Source: Myxococcales bacterium
GTDB taxonomy: Bacteria; Myxococcota; B64-G9
DNA length: 64,000 nucleotides
Reading direction: 5' to 3'
Assembly: GCA_012798435.1 (NCBI GenBank)
Contig: JAAZNF010000074.1
Location: forward strand, 1 to 64,000
Shown here: positions 11,868 to 20,485 of the stretch, piece after piece
Layout: each line of letters opens with the position of its first letter
Numbering within the stretch: the first letter of the stretch is position 1
Notes under the pieces: generated by a model
The model's database searches: none
Told to the model about the DNA's origin: nothing
What the model saw: only the letters and a program-made list of their open reading frames with translations
Made by a program: the position numbers and the translations under genes

Positions 11868-14585
11868 TCAGGGTTTGGCCGGCGCCGGGAAATCCCCCGC
11901 CCGCACCACCGAGAGCTTCGCCGGGTCCACCAGCTTGCGCAGGGCGGCGGACACTTCGGCCAGGGTGAGCTGGCGCAGTCGCTCGTCGATGGCGGCGTCG
12001 AAGGCCATGCTGCGGCCGAGGTTGAGATTGGCGAGCAGGTTCATGGCGAGCCGGGCGTCCTGGGCGCGGTCCTGCTCGCGCTCCTTGAGCAGGCCCTCTT
12101 TGGCGAGCTTCAACTCGTCGGCGGTGAATCCTTCCCGGACGGCTTTCTCCACCTCCTCGCGGAAGCCCTTCTCCACCTGCTCCGCGTTGGCGGCGCCAAA
12201 GATGGCGTACCCCAAAAGCCCGCCGTTGGGCTCATAGGGAGAAACGCTCAAGAAGGTCCCGGCTCCGTACGAGAAACCATCCTTTTCTCGCAGCCGCTTG
12301 GGAATCCGGCCGCTGAGGAACCCTCCACCCATGAGATAATCGGCCATGAGCATGGCCGGATAGTCCGGCTGGTTGTCCTGGAGGGGAAACACCACCCCGG
12401 CACCGAAGAAGGCCATGGGTTTGTCCGGGATGCGGATGACCTGGCGTTTGCCCTCCACCAACACCAGGGGATCGGGCACGCGCACGTAGGGCTCCTGGCC
12501 GCGCCAGTCGCCCAGGCGTTTCTCGAGCTGCGCCTGGACCTCGACCGGGTCGAAATCGCCCACCACGGCCACCAATCCGTCCTGAGCGCCATAGAAGCGG
12601 GTATGAAACTCGCTCGCGTCCTCGAGTCGGGCTTTCTGTGTTTCCGAAATCCGCTCGGTGATGCTGGGTAGGTACCGAGGATGATCGGTCGGGTGGGGGT
12701 TGAACAGCCGCAGCATTTCGTTGAAACCCACCCGGGAGGGATCGTCTTTATCCTGTTCAAGGCTGGCCAGCATCTCCCGGCGCAACTCCTCGAACTCCTT
12801 CGGGTCGAAGGCCGGTTCGCGCAGCACCTCGGCGACGAGGTCGAGCAGCGCGGCCAGGTTCGGCCGGCGCACCTCCAGCGTCACGTTCACCCCGGGCTGC
12901 GAGCCGTTGACCTGGACCTGGGCCTTGAGCTCGTCGAGCCGGTCCTTGATCTGCTGGCGGGACATTTTCTTGGTCCCGCGCAGCAACATGCGGGCGGCGA
13001 GCTCCGCGGCCACGCGCTTGCCGGTGAGGCTCTTCTCGTCGCCGAAGCGGATGTTGAGGATTGCGCGCACGGTCTCGCCGCGGGTCTTCTTGGGCAGCAA
13101 TGCCAGCTTCATCCCGTTGGTGAGGGAGCCGATCTTGGTGCGGGCGTCGATGTTCTTGGGTGTGGCCACGAACGCCTCACCATCGGCCAGGGCCGCTCGA
13201 CCCTGGTAGTCCTTGAGCATGGCCGCCACGTCGGCCACTGGCGGGATCTCCGAGCGATCGGGCTTCTCGGTGGGGACGTACTCGCCGAGCGTGCGGCTCG
13301 ACGGCTTGAGGTACTTCTGCGCCACCCGGTTCGCCTCCGCCGCCGTGACCTTCTCGATGCGGTCGCGGTGGAGGAACAGCATGCGCCAGTCGCCCATGGC
13401 GGCGAACTCGGAGAGCAGGATGCCGATGCGCTGCGAGTCGTTGAGCGTCAGGTCGATGTACTTGAGGAGCGCGCTCTTGGCGCGCGCGACCTCTTCTTCG
13501 GTGATCGGCTTCTTGTCGAGACCTTCGATGGTCGAGATCAGGACGGAGCGCACCTCGTCGGGCGAGTCCTTCTCGCCGAGCTCGGCCAGGCAGTAGAAAT
13601 ATCCCGGCTCGCGAAGCTGGTAGTTGGTGCACCTTACCTTGGCCGCCTTCTTGGTCTCGATCAGCGCCTTGTACAGCCGGCCCGAGGGCGCGTCGCCCAG
13701 CACCTGGTCCACCACGTCCACCGCGGCGTAGTCGGGGTCGGTTCCCGCCGGGACATGGTAGCCGGCCATGAGGAGCGGCGTGCCGCCGGTGCGCCGGACG
13801 TAAACCACGCGCTCTCCGTCCTGCACCGGCTCGCGAGTGTAGGTGGCGGGGAGCTTACGGCGTGGCTTCGGAATCTTGCCGAAGTACCGCGCCACCAGCT
13901 TGAGGGTAGCCACCGGGTCGAACTTGCCGGCGATGACCAGCATGGCATTGTCCGGTTGGTAGTAGGTCTCGTACCAGGCCAGGAGTTTCTCGTTGGGGAC
14001 GTTCTCGACGTCGCTGGCCGGCCCGATGGTATCGTTGCCGTAATTGTGCCACAGGAAGGCCGTGGAGAGGACGCGTTGGGTGAGCACGTTCAGCGGGTCG
14101 TTCTCCCCCATGTCGAGCTCGTTCCGCACCACGCCCATCTCGGTGGCCAGCTCCTCGCGGCTGATGATGGCCGCGCGCAGGCGCTCGGACTCGAGCTGCA
14201 GCGCCCTTCGCAGTTTCTCAGGCTCGGCCGGGATGATCTCGAAGTAGTTGGTGCGATCGTACCAGGTCGAGCCGTTGGCGTAGCCGCCGAGCCGGGTGAG
14301 CTCCTCCTTGATGGACTTGAAGCTCTTCGTCTTCTTGAACAGCATGTGCTCGAAGAGATGCGCCATGCCCTTCTCGCCGTAGTTCTCCTGGCGGCTTCCA
14401 GAGAAGACGGTGAGGTTGACCGTGACGGTGGGCTTGGACTCGTCGGGAACGAGCAACACCTGCAAGCCGTTCGGCAGGCGGTAGGCGGTGATGCCCTCGA
14501 CGCTGGCCTCCAGGGTGAACGGTCGGGGGGCCTGGATGGGGGGAGCGGCCAGAACTGAAAGCACCAGCGTCAGGATCACGCTCAT
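11868..14585 (-). CDS. M16 family zinc metallopeptidase (tandem pitrilysin-type domains), exported
   Basis: This 905-residue protein has an N-terminal signal peptide and two M16 half-barrels (about residues 25-450 and 480-900). The inverted zinc motif HLFEH is at residues 76-80. The third ligand region (NELDMGEND) lies about 75 residues later, as expected. The second half lacks HxxEH and serves as the substrate-clamping partner, normal for this architecture. The start at 14585 follows AAGGAG; a 22-residue upstream extension has no ribosome-binding site. It is monocistronic and divergent from the histidine kinase gene. A role in periplasmic peptide degradation is likely. Confidence 0.93.
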   Translation of the reverse strand: MSVILTLVLSVLAAPPIQAPRPFTLEASVEGITAYRLPNGLQVLLVPDESKPTVTVNLTVFSGSRQENYGEKGMAHLFEHMLFKKTKSFKSIKEELTRLGGYANGSTWYDRTNYFEIIPAEPEKLRRALQLESERLRAAIISREELATEMGVVRNELDMGENDPLNVLTQRVLSTAFLWHNYGNDTIGPASDVENVPNEKLLAWYETYYQPDNAMLVIAGKFDPVATLKLVARYFGKIPKPRRKLPATYTREPVQDGERVVYVRRTGGTPLLMAGYHVPAGTDPDYAAVDVVDQVLGDAPSGRLYKALIETKKAAKVRCTNYQLREPGYFYCLAELGEKDSPDEVRSVLISTIEGLDKKPITEEEVARAKSALLKYIDLTLNDSQRIGILLSEFAAMGDWRMLFLHRDRIEKVTAAEANRVAQKYLKPSSRTLGEYVPTEKPDRSEIPPVADVAAMLKDYQGRAALADGEAFVATPKNIDARTKIGSLTNGMKLALLPKKTRGETVRAILNIRFGDEKSLTGKRVAAELAARMLLRGTKKMSRQQIKDRLDELKAQVQVNGSQPGVNVTLEVRRPNLAALLDLVAEVLREPAFDPKEFEELRREMLASLEQDKDDPSRVGFNEMLRLFNPHPTDHPRYLPSITERISETQKARLEDASEFHTRFYGAQDGLVAVVGDFDPVEVQAQLEKRLGDWRGQEPYVRVPDPLVLVEGKRQVIRIPDKPMAFFGAGVVFPLQDNQPDYPAMLMADYLMGGGFLSGRIPKRLREKDGFSYGAGTFLSVSPYEPNGGLLGYAIFGAANAEQVEKGFREEVEKAVREGFTADELKLAKEGLLKEREQDRAQDARLAMNLLANLNLGRSMAFDAAIDERLRQLTLAEVSAALRKLVDPAKLSVVRAGDFPAPAKP

Positions 14586-14771
14586 GAGATTCTCCTTGGA
14601 GAAGGGGTCTCGTCCCTGCGCTACCAAACCACGAGGCTTCGGGTGTGTCAATCGCGGCGAGCCTCAATAAATGCGTGGTTCGCCCTTGCCGAATGCCGGA
14701 ACGTCTGCTACTCAAACCAGGACCGTATTCGGAAGAGCAAGCTGTATCTGAGAATTCGGAGTCGTCTTTAC

Positions 14772-16982
14772 ATGAACCGAGCGCTGGAGAGCCTGTTCGG
14801 GATCGAAGCGGTCGCCAAGCCCATCGACCCGGCGGTCCAGACTCGCCAGTTGCTGGTGCTGCTCCTCCGGCGCTTGTTTTTCTTGCTGCTCACCCTGAGC
14901 GTGGTGATCCTGCCGGCCTTGTTGATGCGCCTGCCCTCGGTGGGTTGGCACCCGAGCCTACTGGCCGACCTGGCGGCCATGCTCGTCGTGCTTGCCCTAC
15001 TCTTGTTGCGCCACCGGCTTTCACCGGAGTTCGTCGGCGGTGGGTTGCTCGCGGCGCTGCTGGGCGTGGCCTGCGTGAAGCTCCTGTCCCAGGGGCTCTC
15101 CAGCATCGCCACGCCTTCCATCATGGTAGGCAGCGCGCTGTGCGCCATCTTCTTTGGCCTGCCCTGGGCGATCTCCTACCTGGCCGCGGGCCTGCTCATG
15201 CTGGCCGGGATCGGGGTGGCGGTATGCAGCGGCGCCTTCGAGTTCACGCTGCCGCCCGAGACCTTCCTGCGAGCGGGATGGTTCTGGCTCGCGAACGGAG
15301 CCGGACTCGCATTGATGGGCTCGGTACTGGTAATGGTGATCGTGGCTCTCAAACAAAAGCTGTTCCGAACGCTGGAGGAGATCGATCGGCAAGCAAGGGA
15401 AGCGCGGACTCAGCAGAGACTCTATGAACTGATCGAACAGAACATGGAGGACGGCCTAATCGTCCAGGACGGCAATCTGCGGATTCTCTATGCCAACCCT
15501 CGAATTCTCGAACTTTCGGGATACACGCTGGAAGAGCTCTCCACCCTGGGCATCGAACGTCTCATGGCGCCGGAAAGCCTCGAACGGGCGATGAAGATTT
15601 ACGCGGAGCAGCTCGCCCGCTCCAGCGACCCGAGTGCGACCATCCCGCTGATGGAATTCGAGTACGTGCGCAAGGACGGCTCGCAGTTTTTCGGGGAACT
15701 CCATATCCGCTGGTTGCGCGACAGCCGGGGCAAAGTGATTGGATCGGTCAGCATCACGCGGGACGTGACGGAGCGGCGCCGCGCGCAGGAGGAGCGGCGG
15801 CTCCTGGAGGAGCGGCTGCGCCAGGCCGAAAAGATGGAAGCCATCGGGCAGCTCGCTGGCGGCATCGCCCACGATTTCAACAACCACCTGGGTGGCATCA
15901 TGGGTGCGGCGGATTGCCTGCGCCTGGACGCCCCGGAGGGAAGCCAATCCCAGAAGTTGGCGGAGCTCGTCGTGACCGCCGCCAAGCGGGCCGCCGATCT
16001 CACCCGGCAGCTCTTGGTGTTCTCCCGCCGCCAGGAGCCGCACAAGACGCCGCTACAGGCGAGGTGGCTGGTCGAAGAAACCGTGGCCTTGCTCCGCCCC
16101 GGCCTGCCGCCGGACGTCGCGGTGCGGATCGAGGCCGCGGAGCCCGATCTGTGGATCAGCGGGGAGGTGGCCCACCTGGAGAGCGCCCTGCTCAACCTAG
16201 GCATCAACGCCCGGGACGCGGTGGGAAAGAAGGGCGAGATCGTCTTCTCGATCCGGCAGCATCGGCTGGAGCGCGAGGAAGGCTGTGCCGGGGGAGTCAC
16301 CCTGCCCCCGGGAAGTTACGTCGGGATCAGCGTGCGCGACACTGGCGAGGGCATGTCAGAGGAGACGCAGCACAAGCTGTTTACCCCCTTCTTCACCACC
16401 AAGCAGCCGGGCAAGGGGACCGGGTTGGGCCTGGCGGCGGTGTTCGGGGTGGTAAGCTCGCACGGGGGCGGCATCCGCGTCGAGAGCCGCGTTGGCCAGG
16501 GATCGTGCTTCGATGTGTTCCTTCCGGCGCATGAGCCGATCGCCGCCGCGACGACCTCCGCGGCTTCGGCGAGTCCGGGTCGTCGTGGGCTGCGCATCGT
16601 TCTGGTCGAGGACGACCCCGTCCTGCGCGAGGCGACGAGCGCCATGCTCTCTCTGTTGAACCACCAGGTGGTCGTCTGCGCGGGCCCGGCGGACGCGCTC
16701 GAGGCGGTATGCCGGAACGGGAGCGAGGCGGAGCTGGTGCTCATGGACGTCAACATGCCGGGGCTCTCCGGGATCGAGGTGGCGGGCGAGATCCACCGCC
16801 ACTCTCCGTCCGTGCGGGTGCTGTTGGTCTCGGGGCGGCCGCTGTCGTTGGAGGACGCCGCCCGCTTGCCTGCGAACGTCTGTGGCTTTTTAGCCAAACC
16901 CTATTCGTTGGCGGACCTGGAGAAAGAGATCGCTCGTCTGGCCCCATCGCATGATGCGGCCCCGGCATCGAGCCCCGGCTGA
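14772..16982 (+). CDS. Hybrid sensor histidine kinase (membrane sensor, PAS, HisKA, HATPase, receiver)
   Basis: In this 736-residue protein about six membrane segments (residues 25-200) precede a PAS domain (about 215-335). The HisKA box is GGIAHDFNN with phospho-accepting His367. The HATPase domain has N-box NLGINARDAV, DTGEGM, FFTTK and GTGLGL. The C-terminal receiver has acidic VEDDP, phospho-acceptor Asp659 in LMDVNMPG, and the conserved Lys in LAKPYS. All catalytic residues are present. A membrane-embedded sensor suggests detection of a lipophilic or membrane signal. GGAG lies 10 nt before the ATG. The last 82 bp overlap the CYTH-domain gene on the other strand. Confidence 0.92.
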   Translation: MNRALESLFGIEAVAKPIDPAVQTRQLLVLLLRRLFFLLLTLSVVILPALLMRLPSVGWHPSLLADLAAMLVVLALLLLRHRLSPEFVGGGLLAALLGVACVKLLSQGLSSIATPSIMVGSALCAIFFGLPWAISYLAAGLLMLAGIGVAVCSGAFEFTLPPETFLRAGWFWLANGAGLALMGSVLVMVIVALKQKLFRTLEEIDRQAREARTQQRLYELIEQNMEDGLIVQDGNLRILYANPRILELSGYTLEELSTLGIERLMAPESLERAMKIYAEQLARSSDPSATIPLMEFEYVRKDGSQFFGELHIRWLRDSRGKVIGSVSITRDVTERRRAQEERRLLEERLRQAEKMEAIGQLAGGIAHDFNNHLGGIMGAADCLRLDAPEGSQSQKLAELVVTAAKRAADLTRQLLVFSRRQEPHKTPLQARWLVEETVALLRPGLPPDVAVRIEAAEPDLWISGEVAHLESALLNLGINARDAVGKKGEIVFSIRQHRLEREEGCAGGVTLPPGSYVGISVRDTGEGMSEETQHKLFTPFFTTKQPGKGTGLGLAAVFGVVSSHGGGIRVESRVGQGSCFDVFLPAHEPIAAATTSAASASPGRRGLRIVLVEDDPVLREATSAMLSLLNHQVVVCAGPADALEAVCRNGSEAELVLMDVNMPGLSGIEVAGEIHRHSPSVRVLLVSGRPLSLEDAARLPANVCGFLAKPYSLADLEKEIARLAPSHDAAPASSPG

Positions 16983-17527
16983 CGGCATGCTCCTTGGCGC
17001 CGTGCCCGCTTTTGGCGTGACAGCCACATGCTGAGGTACGACTCGCGAAGGAAGCCGGAGAGGGAGAGCTTCCGCGCCAGCGCCAGCAGCCGCCGCTGTG
17101 CTGCGGTCCGGTCGGTTCCGATGATCTCAAGCTCCACGAAGGAGCCGAGGCCCTCGACCTGGTCCAGGCACACGGTGATGCCCGAGAGCGTGTAGGTTTC
17201 GCGCCGCTTGCGCACCCGGCCGAACACCCGAAACCCGAGTTTCTGCAAGATGTTACTCATGAGGCGAGCCGAGCCGACGGTGACTTGAACCTCGGGACGG
17301 GTCTTGGCGATCCCGGGCTGGCGCGGCCCCTTGTAGGTGACGAAAGACTCCTGACCCGCGCTGCGCACCCGCAGCGCCTCACCGGTCAAGCCGAAGTCGC
17401 GGCCGGGGTGGCGGTAGTAGACATCCCGCTCGATTTGCTTGCCAACCCGGACCCCGCCGAGCCGTGCCACCTGGCGCCGGATGTCCGAGAGCGACCGGAC
17501 GCGCGATTTGAGCTCGACCTCGAGCAT
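16901..17527 (-). CDS. CYTH-domain protein (class IV adenylate cyclase / triphosphatase type)
   Basis: The 208-residue protein begins MLEVELK, supplying the ExExK motif that defines CYTH enzymes. Further basic and acidic tunnel residues follow (YKGPR, VRKRRETY, EGLGSFVELEI). Members are adenylate cyclases (CyaB/class IV) or inorganic/thiamine triphosphatases acting on triphosphates with metal ions. The type cannot be decided here. The conserved fold should end near LSMWL, about residue 170. The final 35 or so residues are encoded antisense to the receiver domain of the neighbouring kinase gene and look like an unconstrained tail. It is divergent from the tyrosine phenol-lyase gene. Confidence 0.85.
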   Translation of the reverse strand: MLEVELKSRVRSLSDIRRQVARLGGVRVGKQIERDVYYRHPGRDFGLTGEALRVRSAGQESFVTYKGPRQPGIAKTRPEVQVTVGSARLMSNILQKLGFRVFGRVRKRRETYTLSGITVCLDQVEGLGSFVELEIIGTDRTAAQRRLLALARKLSLSGFLRESYLSMWLSRQKRARRQGACRQPGLDAGAASCDGARRAISFSRSANE

Positions 17528-17698
17528 CGGATCCTCCGTGGGGGGTGCGGGGGAGGATATTTCACGGGTTGGAGGTTCCGCAAGCCAAAACCGGCCCATC
17601 GGGGCCGATCTTGGCGCTTGACAACGGACGGCCGGAGGGGTTTGTTCTTTGCCGGCCGCGGGCGCGATGCCCCGCCGGGAGGGGTAGAGGAGATACCA

Positions 17699-20485
17699 AT
17701 GAGTCCCACCGTCGCCGAACCGTTCCGAAACAAGGTCATCGAGCGCATTCCGGTGGTGTCCTACCAGCGCCGTCGCGAGGCCCTCATCGAAGCCGGGCAC
17801 AACCCCTGGCTGATCCGGGCGGTGGACGTGCCGATCGACTTTCTCTCCGACAGCGGCGGGGCGGCCCAGAGCGATCGCCAGTGGGCCGGGCTGATGGTGG
17901 GCGACGAGGCCTACGCCGGCAGCCGCAATTTCTACCAGCTGGAGAAGAACTGTCAGGAGGTCTTCGGGCACCGTTGGATGGTTCCCACCCACCTGGGGCG
18001 CGGCGCCGAGCACCTGGTCAGCCGCACCCTGATCCCCGACCCGGGCCGGCCCGCCCGGGTGCTGGCCCAGAACCCCGCGCCCACCGCCCGGGTGCACTGG
18101 CATCGCCGGGGCGCCTCAGTGGTGGAGATCGGCGTGGCGGCGGCGAACGACCCGGCCTCGAGCGAGGTGTTCCGCGCCGACGTGGATTTGGACAAGCTCA
18201 AGCGGGCCCTGGCGGACCGCTCGACCCCGGTGGCCTTCGTGGCCCTGGCCTGCTGCCCGGAGTTCATCGGCGCCGCCCCGGCGCGGCTCTCGAACCTGAA
18301 AGAAGCGGCGCGGCTGGCTCGGGAGGCCGGCGTGCCGGTGGTGTTGGACGCCTCGCGCATCGCCATGAACGCCCTGTTCGTCCAGCGGCACGAGCCGGGC
18401 CAGGAGAAACGCTCGCTGCGCGAGATCATCCGGGAGCTGGCCGCCTGCGGCGACACCCTGGTGGTGAGCGCCAAGGAGGCGTGTCTGGCCAACTGCGGCG
18501 GGTTCGTGTGCACCCAAAAGGAAGAGGTGTACCAGGGGGTACGCTCGCTGGTCGTGGTCTACGAGGGCCTGCACACCTACGGCGGCATGGCCGGCCGCGA
18601 CATGGAGGCGGTGGCCACGGGGCTTCTGGAGATGTGCCAGCCGGAGTTCATCGGTTGGCACCAGTACCAGCTCGAGCAGCTTGCCCGGGCCCTGGAGGGC
18701 GCCGGGCTGCCGGTGGTGAAACCGGTGGGTGGAGCCGGGGTGTACCTGGACGCGCGGCGCTTCGCTCCCCACCTGCCGCCCGAGCAGCACCCGGCGCTGG
18801 CCGTGGCCTGCGCCATCTTCCTGGGGGCCGGGGTGCGCTGCGGCGAGCGGGGCCTGGCCTCGCGGCCGCGGCTGGAGGCGACGGCGAACGGCGCGGGCAT
18901 GGAGCTGGTGGCGTTGTGCCCGCCCATGCGGGTGTACTCGCTGGCTCACCTGCAATATGCCGCCAAGGCCATCGCCGCGGTGTACGCCAGGCGAGACTCG
19001 ATACACGGGCTGCGCCTGCGCCAGGCGGCCGGCGCCCTGTCTGGGTACGGCGCGCTCTTCGACCCGGTGGAGGCGGACACGGTGCTGCCCGTGCCCCCGC
19101 CCGATCCGCAGGCCCAGCCGCTGGAGTACGAACCCTACCGGACCAAGACCATCGAGGTGCTGCGCACCACCGACCGGGAGTACCGCGAGCGGGCCGCAGT
19201 CGAGGCGGGCTTCAACACCTTCCTGCTGCGTTCCGAGGACTGCTACATCGACCTGCTCACCGACTCCGGCACCTCGGCCATGAGCGACGACCAGTGGGCC
19301 GCGGCCATGGTGGGCGACGAGTCCGCGGCGGGTTCCTGGGACTTCTACCAGCTCGAGGAGGCCCAGCGCGAGGTGCTGGGCTTCGCCCACATGGTGCCAG
19401 TGCACCAGGGCCGCGCCGGCGAGCACCTGATCTCCCAGGCCATGATCAAGCCGGGAGACACCATCCCCGGCAACATGTACTTCACCACCACGCGCGAGCA
19501 CCAGGAGCTGGCCGGCGGCACCTTCGTGGACGTCATCATCGATCAGGCGCACGACCCCGCCAGCCAATACCCTTGGAAGGGCGACATCGACCTCAACAAG
19601 CTCAAGTCGCTCATCGAGAAGGTGGGCGCCAAGCGCATCCCGTACGTCAAGTACGAGTGCTCGGTGAACATGGCCGGCGGACAGCCGGTGTCGATGGAAA
19701 ACGCCCGCGCGGTCTCCGAGCTGTGCCACGCCCACGGCATCCAGGTCATGTTCGATGCCACCCGCTGCGCCGAGAACGCGTATCTCATCCAGAAGAAGGA
19801 CCCCAAGTACCACAAGGTGCCGGTGGCCCAGATCCTCAAGGAGCTCATGTCCTACGGCGACGGGTGCACCATCAGCGCCAAGAAGGACCTCCTGGTGAAC
19901 ATCGGCTCGTTCTGCGCCACCAACCACCGCTGGGTGTACGAGCGAGTACGAGAGATGTGCCCCATCTTCGAGGGGCCACTCACCTCGGGCGGCATGACCG
20001 GCCGCGACATGGCCTGCCTGGCCGCCGGGATCTACGAGATGGTCGATGACACCTACATCCGCTCCCGCGTCGAGGCCACCCAATACCTGGGCAAGCTGCT
20101 GCTCGACGCCGGGATCCCCATCGTGGAGCCCCCCGGAACCCATGCCATCTTCCTGGACGCCAGGCGGTTCCTCCCGCACATCGAGCAAGATCAGTACCCC
20201 GCCCAGGTGCTGGCGGCGGAGCTGTTCATCGAGGGCGGCATCCGGGCCATGGAACGCGGCAACGTCTCGGCCGGCCGGGACAAGAAGACCGGACAGAACA
20301 AGCGCCCCAAGCTGGAGCTGGTGCGCCTCACCATCCCACGCCGGGTCTACTCCCGCAGCCAGTTCGAGCTGTGTGCCGAGGCGGTCATCCGGGTGTGGAA
20401 GCGGCGCGAGTCCATTCGCGGACTCAAGATGGTCTTCGAGGCGCCGCAGCTTCGCTTCTTCACCGCGCGGTTCGAGCGCCTATGA
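17699..20485 (+). CDS. tpl: Fused double tyrosine phenol-lyase (two tryptophanase/TPL domains in one chain)
   Basis: This 928-residue protein holds two complete beta-eliminating lyase domains, about residues 1-460 and 475-928, joined by a Pro-rich linker. Family enzymes (about 456 residues) are PLP tetramers that split tyrosine to phenol, pyruvate and ammonia. The second domain keeps the PLP lysine (Lys729 in SAKKD), FTTT, DATR, Arg876 (Arg404 of the Citrobacter enzyme), and the tyrosine-specific Arg853 (Arg381) and Phe920 (Phe448). It has Ala543 and Ser763 where the enzyme has Tyr71 and Tyr291. The first domain has Tyr72 and Tyr294 at those positions, but Glu260 replaces the PLP lysine, and the FTTT loop, Arg404 and Phe448 equivalents are lost. 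The start follows AGAGGAG; no permease or regulator is adjacent. Confidence 0.93.
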   Translation: MSPTVAEPFRNKVIERIPVVSYQRRREALIEAGHNPWLIRAVDVPIDFLSDSGGAAQSDRQWAGLMVGDEAYAGSRNFYQLEKNCQEVFGHRWMVPTHLGRGAEHLVSRTLIPDPGRPARVLAQNPAPTARVHWHRRGASVVEIGVAAANDPASSEVFRADVDLDKLKRALADRSTPVAFVALACCPEFIGAAPARLSNLKEAARLAREAGVPVVLDASRIAMNALFVQRHEPGQEKRSLREIIRELAACGDTLVVSAKEACLANCGGFVCTQKEEVYQGVRSLVVVYEGLHTYGGMAGRDMEAVATGLLEMCQPEFIGWHQYQLEQLARALEGAGLPVVKPVGGAGVYLDARRFAPHLPPEQHPALAVACAIFLGAGVRCGERGLASRPRLEATANGAGMELVALCPPMRVYSLAHLQYAAKAIAAVYARRDSIHGLRLRQAAGALSGYGALFDPVEADTVLPVPPPDPQAQPLEYEPYRTKTIEVLRTTDREYRERAAVEAGFNTFLLRSEDCYIDLLTDSGTSAMSDDQWAAAMVGDESAAGSWDFYQLEEAQREVLGFAHMVPVHQGRAGEHLISQAMIKPGDTIPGNMYFTTTREHQELAGGTFVDVIIDQAHDPASQYPWKGDIDLNKLKSLIEKVGAKRIPYVKYECSVNMAGGQPVSMENARAVSELCHAHGIQVMFDATRCAENAYLIQKKDPKYHKVPVAQILKELMSYGDGCTISAKKDLLVNIGSFCATNHRWVYERVREMCPIFEGPLTSGGMTGRDMACLAAGIYEMVDDTYIRSRVEATQYLGKLLLDAGIPIVEPPGTHAIFLDARRFLPHIEQDQYPAQVLAAELFIEGGIRAMERGNVSAGRDKKTGQNKRPKLELVRLTIPRRVYSRSQFELCAEAVIRVWKRRESIRGLKMVFEAPQLRFFTARFERL

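Follow-up and report, generated by a model that had tools for sequence, protein, structure and literature searches.

The 64,000-nucleotide stretch of a Myxococcales contig analysed here (the window) contains a gene encoding two tyrosine phenol-lyase (TPL) domains in one chain. Each domain has lost a part of the active site that is present in the other. This raises the question of whether the two halves form a single composite site, and if so, of what kind.

Layout of the fused gene and its active-site residues

The 928-codon frame is intact. It starts with ATG at 17699-17701, preceded a few bases 5' by a purine-rich AGGAG-like stretch, and ends with a TGA whose last base is 20485. The neighbouring CYTH/class IV adenylate cyclase-like gene (16901-17545, minus strand) diverges from it across a short gap. 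The features of the locus are as follows.

17699..20485, plus strand: fused TPL gene, 928 aa (open reading frame and translation; two stretches each of TIGR02618 and PF01212)
17699..19063, plus strand: domain 1, candidate tyrosine-donating half, residues ~1-455 (alignments, HMM domain limits)
17903..17932, plus strand: candidate trans loop 1 of domain 1, residues 69-78 (DEAYAGSRNF; TPL 68-77), including Tyr72
18476..18478, plus strand: codon of Glu260, which stands in domain 1 where TPL has its PLP lysine, Lys257 (alignment)
18551..18607, plus strand: candidate trans loop 2 of domain 1, residues 285-303 (VVVYEGLHTYGGMAGRDME; TPL 282-300), including Tyr294
19064..19126, plus strand: linker between the domains, residues ~456-476 (low model confidence at 463-476; domain limits)
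19127..20482, plus strand: domain 2, candidate PLP and substrate half, residues ~477-928 (alignments; crystal match with TM 0.97)

The initial annotation described two TPL domains in one chain, and indeed both the NCBIfam tyrosine phenol-lyase profile TIGR02618 and the Pfam profile PF01212 match both halves. The whole protein belongs to TIGR02618, scoring 1084.1 bits against a curated cut-off of 720.7 bits, which is easier to exceed here as the score sums two domains. Domain 2 is 54% identical to TPL (best PDB match 1c7g, 563 bits, E=1e-167), and domain 1 shares 41% identity with TPL and 38% with domain 2.

Alignments to TPL numbering agree with the residue assignments made initially. Domain 1 has Tyr72 and Tyr294 at the positions of TPL Tyr71 and Tyr291, Glu260 for the PLP lysine, and Ala, Glu, Ala and Gly for Phe123, Asn185, Arg404 and Phe448. 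It also keeps Leu291 and Arg300 (TPL 288 and 297). Domain 2 has Ala543 for Tyr71 and Ser763 for Tyr291, and keeps Lys729, the FTTT and DATR motifs, and Thr596, Asn657, Arg853, Arg876 and Phe920 (TPL Thr124, Asn185, Arg381, Arg404 and Phe448, respectively). The PLP-forming Lys257 of the SxKK motif is represented by Lys729 of domain 2, so that the chain consists of two fold-type-I halves with the PLP lysine in one of them only. The protein departs from the TPL homotetramer, in which all subunits are identical, have one domain and carry a site of their own: there are two unlike domains and one PLP lysine. Since some residues of the phosphate cup remain in domain 1 (the equivalents of Gly99, Arg100, Ser254 and Lys256), this domain may bind PLP noncovalently.

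Division of residues among homologous fusions

Together with the window protein, 55 fusions from at least nine bacterial phyla were found. Searched at the protein level, 58 related genomes yielded four fusions from the window's family (L001-L004, 62-100% identity) and two from another family (L005, L006, ~44% identity). A scan of GTDB contigs with a single protein as the query had zero matches; with an alignment of the first fusions as the query it produced 37 more, in records named Myxococcota/Deltaproteobacteria, Bacteroidota, Gemmatimonadota, Acidobacteriota, Planctomycetota, Chloroflexota, Thermodesulfobacteriota, Gammaproteobacteria and Stahlbacteria. Twelve additional fusions came from further surveys that used no sequence pattern. 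According to the pattern-free surveys, the fusion occurs in 7/179 genomes from the phylum to which the window belongs, 3/395 from Bacteroidota, 8/298 from Gemmatimonadota and 10/347 from Acidobacteriota (one of the ten is partial). By name, most records are metagenome-assembled genomes, with the binning uncertainty usual for these; the isolate record of Plebeiobacterium marinum D04 (L064) contributes one fusion, and three records are titled chromosomes (L051, L060, L061). Chance or an assembly artefact as the source of the split is ruled out by the 54 other fusions, which have it in independent genomes.

The complementary loss is observed in all 55 fusions (43/43 plus the 12 additional ones). 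TPL positions 71, 288, 291 and 297 of domain 1 are invariably Tyr, Leu, Tyr and Arg, respectively. The PLP lysine is missing from every domain 1; Gln usually takes its place, and in the remaining copies Glu, Gly, His or Arg does. Domain 2, where complete, retains Lys257, Phe123, Thr124, Asn185, Asp214, Arg217, Arg381, Arg404, Phe448 and Phe449 (TPL numbering). It never has Tyr at position 71 (Pro, Ala, Gln, Ser and others) or at position 291 (Asp, Asn, Ser and others). All these residues are kept in about 110 standalone TPLs, including those that adjoin a tryptophanase gene. Independent loss of the tyrosines and the lysine, named initially as evidence against a shared site, was seen neither in the 55 fusions nor in these standalone enzymes.

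These counts should be read with some care. The scan that yielded 37 fusions used two patterns, GDEAY and EGLHTY, taken from loops of domain 1, and thus tyrosine retention in that set is partly selected; the patterns imposed no selection on the loss of lysine from domain 1 or of tyrosines from domain 2. As such patterns favour fusions that keep the domain 1 loops, we rely on the 18 of 55 fusions that came from pattern-free protein searches of whole genomes and have no motif bias. The partition is the same in 18 of 18. Moreover, the fusions share descent, possibly from one event, and 55 of 55 are not 55 independent trials; judging by the alignments, what counts is the retention in domain 1 pairs that have diverged down to 23% identity and still keep the loops.

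As the contribution of domain 1, the initial annotation named two tyrosines. The tyrosines are indeed divided in this way, but so are whole loops and the N-terminal arm. In a column scan over all TPL-invariant positions, made without preselected residues, ten positions proved to be retained in domain 1 but not in domain 2. All ten are at Lys11 or belong to the loops 67-73 and 282-297; 75 positions show the reverse. Trans loop 1 is present in every domain 1 copy and gone from the domain 2 copies. Within domain 1, the loops at TPL 66-77 and 282-300 are 93% conserved versus 51% elsewhere, and 21 of 37 near-invariant positions fall into them (hypergeometric p=6e-19). Within domain 2, the same loops are 62% conserved versus 74% for the rest. 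Every domain 1 copy has Glu69, as do 18 of the 43 domain 2 copies. Assuming that Glu69 of the monovalent-cation site of TPL comes from the partner subunit, this pattern also appears to fit the partition.

No separately encoded half-genes were found among the ~110 standalone TPLs. Unfused genes of the tryptophanase and TPL types adjoin on the same strand at 16 loci in several phyla (L040-L049, L053, L058, L075, L088, L107, L112). All readable catalytic residues are kept in both genes of each pair; these loci were considered as candidate split genes for separate halves and rejected, as they consist of an intact tryptophanase and an intact TPL. The Gemmatimonadota genome G729 carries two standalone TPL-scoring genes.

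Candidate composite site and its substrate

Published structures indicate what the divided residues do. In the catalytic dimer of Proteus tryptophanase, the leaving group is protonated by Tyr-72*, which belongs to the opposite chain (PMC11301627). In the E. coli enzyme, Tyr74 and Tyr307 reach the adjacent subunit and bond there to the phosphate of PLP (PMC2770544); from the common invariant position, we read Tyr307 as the equivalent of TPL Tyr291. In TPL itself, the leaving phenol is protonated by Tyr71, and its hydroxyl is held by Arg381 with Thr124 (PMC9262865). The initial assumption that Tyr71 and Tyr291 act from the partner subunit is thus backed by the two tryptophanase structures. Given these published roles, the set that only domain 1 has retained works in trans, and the set that only domain 2 has retained works in cis.

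Very probably, then, the fused protein is a pseudo-homodimer, obligate and covalently joined, that has the specificity of TPL and a single composite site in each chain. Domain 2 would bind PLP via Lys729 and form the substrate pocket. Domain 1, having lost its own cofactor site, would extend two loops into the site of domain 2, where Tyr72 and Tyr294 are placed by analogy with the tryptophanase structures (PMC2770544, PMC11301627). Tyr72 would protonate the departing phenol, and Tyr294 would sit at the PLP phosphate. The mirror site, made of the domain 1 pocket and the domain 2 loops, would be doubly dead. A pair of fused chains would correspond to the TPL tetramer, but with its four sites reduced to two, and the predicted reaction is the cleavage of L-tyrosine to phenol, pyruvate and ammonia. 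An AlphaFold2 model of the fused chain, built from a 39-sequence alignment of fusions, has pLDDT 82.9 and whole-chain pTM 0.76. A pTM of about 0.5 would be expected if the halves were oriented independently, which suggests that their relative placement is modelled with partial confidence. The modelled domain 2 superimposes on TPL crystal structures at ~1.1 A (TM 0.97).

It is rather unlikely that the site is instead composed of domain 1 and domain 2 of different, swapped chains. The linker of about 20 residues is poorly modelled and sequence is blind to the choice between pairing within and between chains; on the other hand, the fusion itself implies a benefit from linking the halves, and no half is encoded separately among the ~110 standalone TPLs. 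Domain 1 might also be a structural or regulatory relic, with sites formed between domain 2 copies of different chains and lacking partner tyrosines. Although this would agree with the absence of a cofactor site in domain 1 and, in trees, with its faster evolution as compared to domain 2, it is a very improbable explanation: it accounts neither for the retention by domain 1, amid general drift, of just the two loops with the trans tyrosines, nor for the loss of the same loops from domain 2 while the rest is kept. A decaying pseudogene or a chimeric assembly might be suspected from the missing catalytic lysine of one domain. However, the 928-codon frame is undamaged, domain 2 and the domain 1 loops are strongly conserved, and the same architecture occurs in independent assemblies, an isolate record among them, which leaves almost no probability for this explanation.

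The substrate class of the composite site follows from the residues of domain 2. The phenol-recognition residues Thr124, Arg381 and Phe448 are present in the window protein and in every full-length fusion, and so is Met379 in every full-length fusion checked. Tryptophanase-type single genes have Asp, Val/Cys, Ile/Val and His for Thr124, Met379, Arg381 and Phe448, respectively; the tryptophanase residues Asp124 and His448 (TPL numbering) are absent from domain 2, which has Thr and Phe there. The score against the tryptophanase profile TIGR02617, 736.3 bits even with two domains summed, is below the cut-off of 825.8.

The genomic distribution points in the same direction. By match score, none of the 38 fully scored fusion genomes has a canonical TPL alongside the fusion, and hence the fusion probably replaces the canonical enzyme in these genomes. 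Most of them do have a tryptophanase-type single gene. The same exclusion is seen in the window's phylum, with fewer candidates scored per genome. Most likely, judging by the domain 2 residues and by gene content, the fusion does the TPL job in the cell. The window's own genome has a separate tryptophanase-type gene (L030, G000:C100:72059-73450) with Asp124, Ile381 and His448 (TPL numbering). A composite site acting on something else, such as another aromatic or an S-linked amino acid, or working in the synthetic direction, is improbable. In its favour are the derivation of the specificity from residues only, the Leu that domain 1 always has at the position of Met288 of the classical enzymes, and the strong divergence of several fusion lineages (L082, L083, L121). 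However, Leu288 is also usual in standalone TPLs, the set Thr124, Arg381, Phe448 and Phe449 is found in domain 2 of every full-length fusion, and it is the canonical TPL that the fusion probably replaces.

Gene neighbourhood provides weak functional support, and no conserved neighbourhood of the fusions was observed beyond close relatives. Some Bacteroidales fusions lie near an aminotransferase or a 2-oxoacid:ferredoxin oxidoreductase (class I/II aminotransferase and VorB-like genes at L067:3682-5004, L067:8286-9368 and L052:11191-12273), and in another genome an acyl-CoA synthetase gene (L062:10686-12812) lies near the fusion. These neighbours suggest amino acid breakdown or fermentation.

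Origin and related designs

In the trees, the split between TPL and tryptophanase leaves both halves with the TPLs, and thus an origin by fusion of a tryptophanase with a TPL is ruled out. The domain 1 copies form one clade, to be treated with caution because of its long branches. The domain 2 copies form a main clade and a small one (L082, L121, L122), in which two divergent Bacteroidota fusions (L121, L122) group with a Chloroflexota fusion (L082) apart from the others. As constraining all domain 2 copies to one clade is not rejected (p-AU 0.47), a single fusion origin is the simplest explanation and two are possible. That the site division arose twice from ordinary TPL, in the main lineage that includes the window and in the Chloroflexota/Bacteroidota lineage (L082, L121, L122), seems doubtful; if true, it would be convergent evolution of an asymmetric one-site enzyme.

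The closest known system is tyrosine phenol-lyase itself (EC 4.1.99.2; TIGR02618; PDB 1TPL, 1C7G), whose profile covers both halves and whose PLP and substrate residues, as well as fold, are kept in domain 2. Unlike TPL, a tetramer of identical ~52-kDa subunits with four equivalent sites, the fusion divides the site residues between unlike fused halves. Tryptophanase (EC 4.1.99.1) belongs to the same Pfam family, and its tyrosines equivalent to TPL 71 and 291 also act across the catalytic dimer, but the fusion lacks its specificity residues Asp, Ile/Val and His. The adjacent tryptophanase-TPL gene pairs, unlike the fusion, keep all catalytic residues in both genes.

The initial claim that no enzyme of such design had been described was too strong. 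The P-protein of glycine decarboxylase consists of fused fold-type-I halves, with Gln replacing the PLP lysine in the N-terminal half and PLP bound by the C-terminal half (PMC7259800); Gln is also found at the corresponding position in most TPL fusions. However, glycine decarboxylase represents a different PLP family and reaction and is not homologous as a fusion, and the Pfam and NCBIfam matches of the fused protein, limited to the beta-eliminating lyase and GntG families, place it outside the P-protein family. The halves of glycine decarboxylase are separate subunits in some bacteria; no such separate halves were found for the TPL fusions. In serine palmitoyltransferase LCB1/LCB2, the partner without the PLP lysine is thought to supply residues to the single site of the heterodimer (PMC3794620), but there the subunits are encoded by separate genes, eukaryotic and from another PLP family (Aminotran_1_2). 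A search of open-licence PMC papers found no report of a fused TPL. Thus the design is known in other PLP families and, in this literature, seems to be undescribed for TPL and tryptophanase.

With the same split in 55 genes across at least nine phyla, the fusion looks like a stable enzyme design. Annotation pipelines would label it as an ordinary tyrosine phenol-lyase, hiding the loss of half the sites and the asymmetry. The 55 fusions are a natural experiment on the catalytic dimer of TPL and tryptophanase, in which cis and trans residues are cleanly separated, and predict, without a crystal structure, the residues lent to the neighbour: TPL 67-76 and 282-300, plus Lys11. They also provide a test of the drift of oligomeric enzymes into pseudo-heterodimers after fusion. 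TPL is an industrial catalyst of L-DOPA production, and with the two roles on separate domains, the proton-donor half and the pocket half might be changed independently.

One more candidate two-half enzyme, of a well-known kind, is encoded in the window. It is a 927-aa M16-type peptidase-like open reading frame (11868-14651, minus strand; assigned by eye only) with the HLFEH motif in its N-terminal half only.
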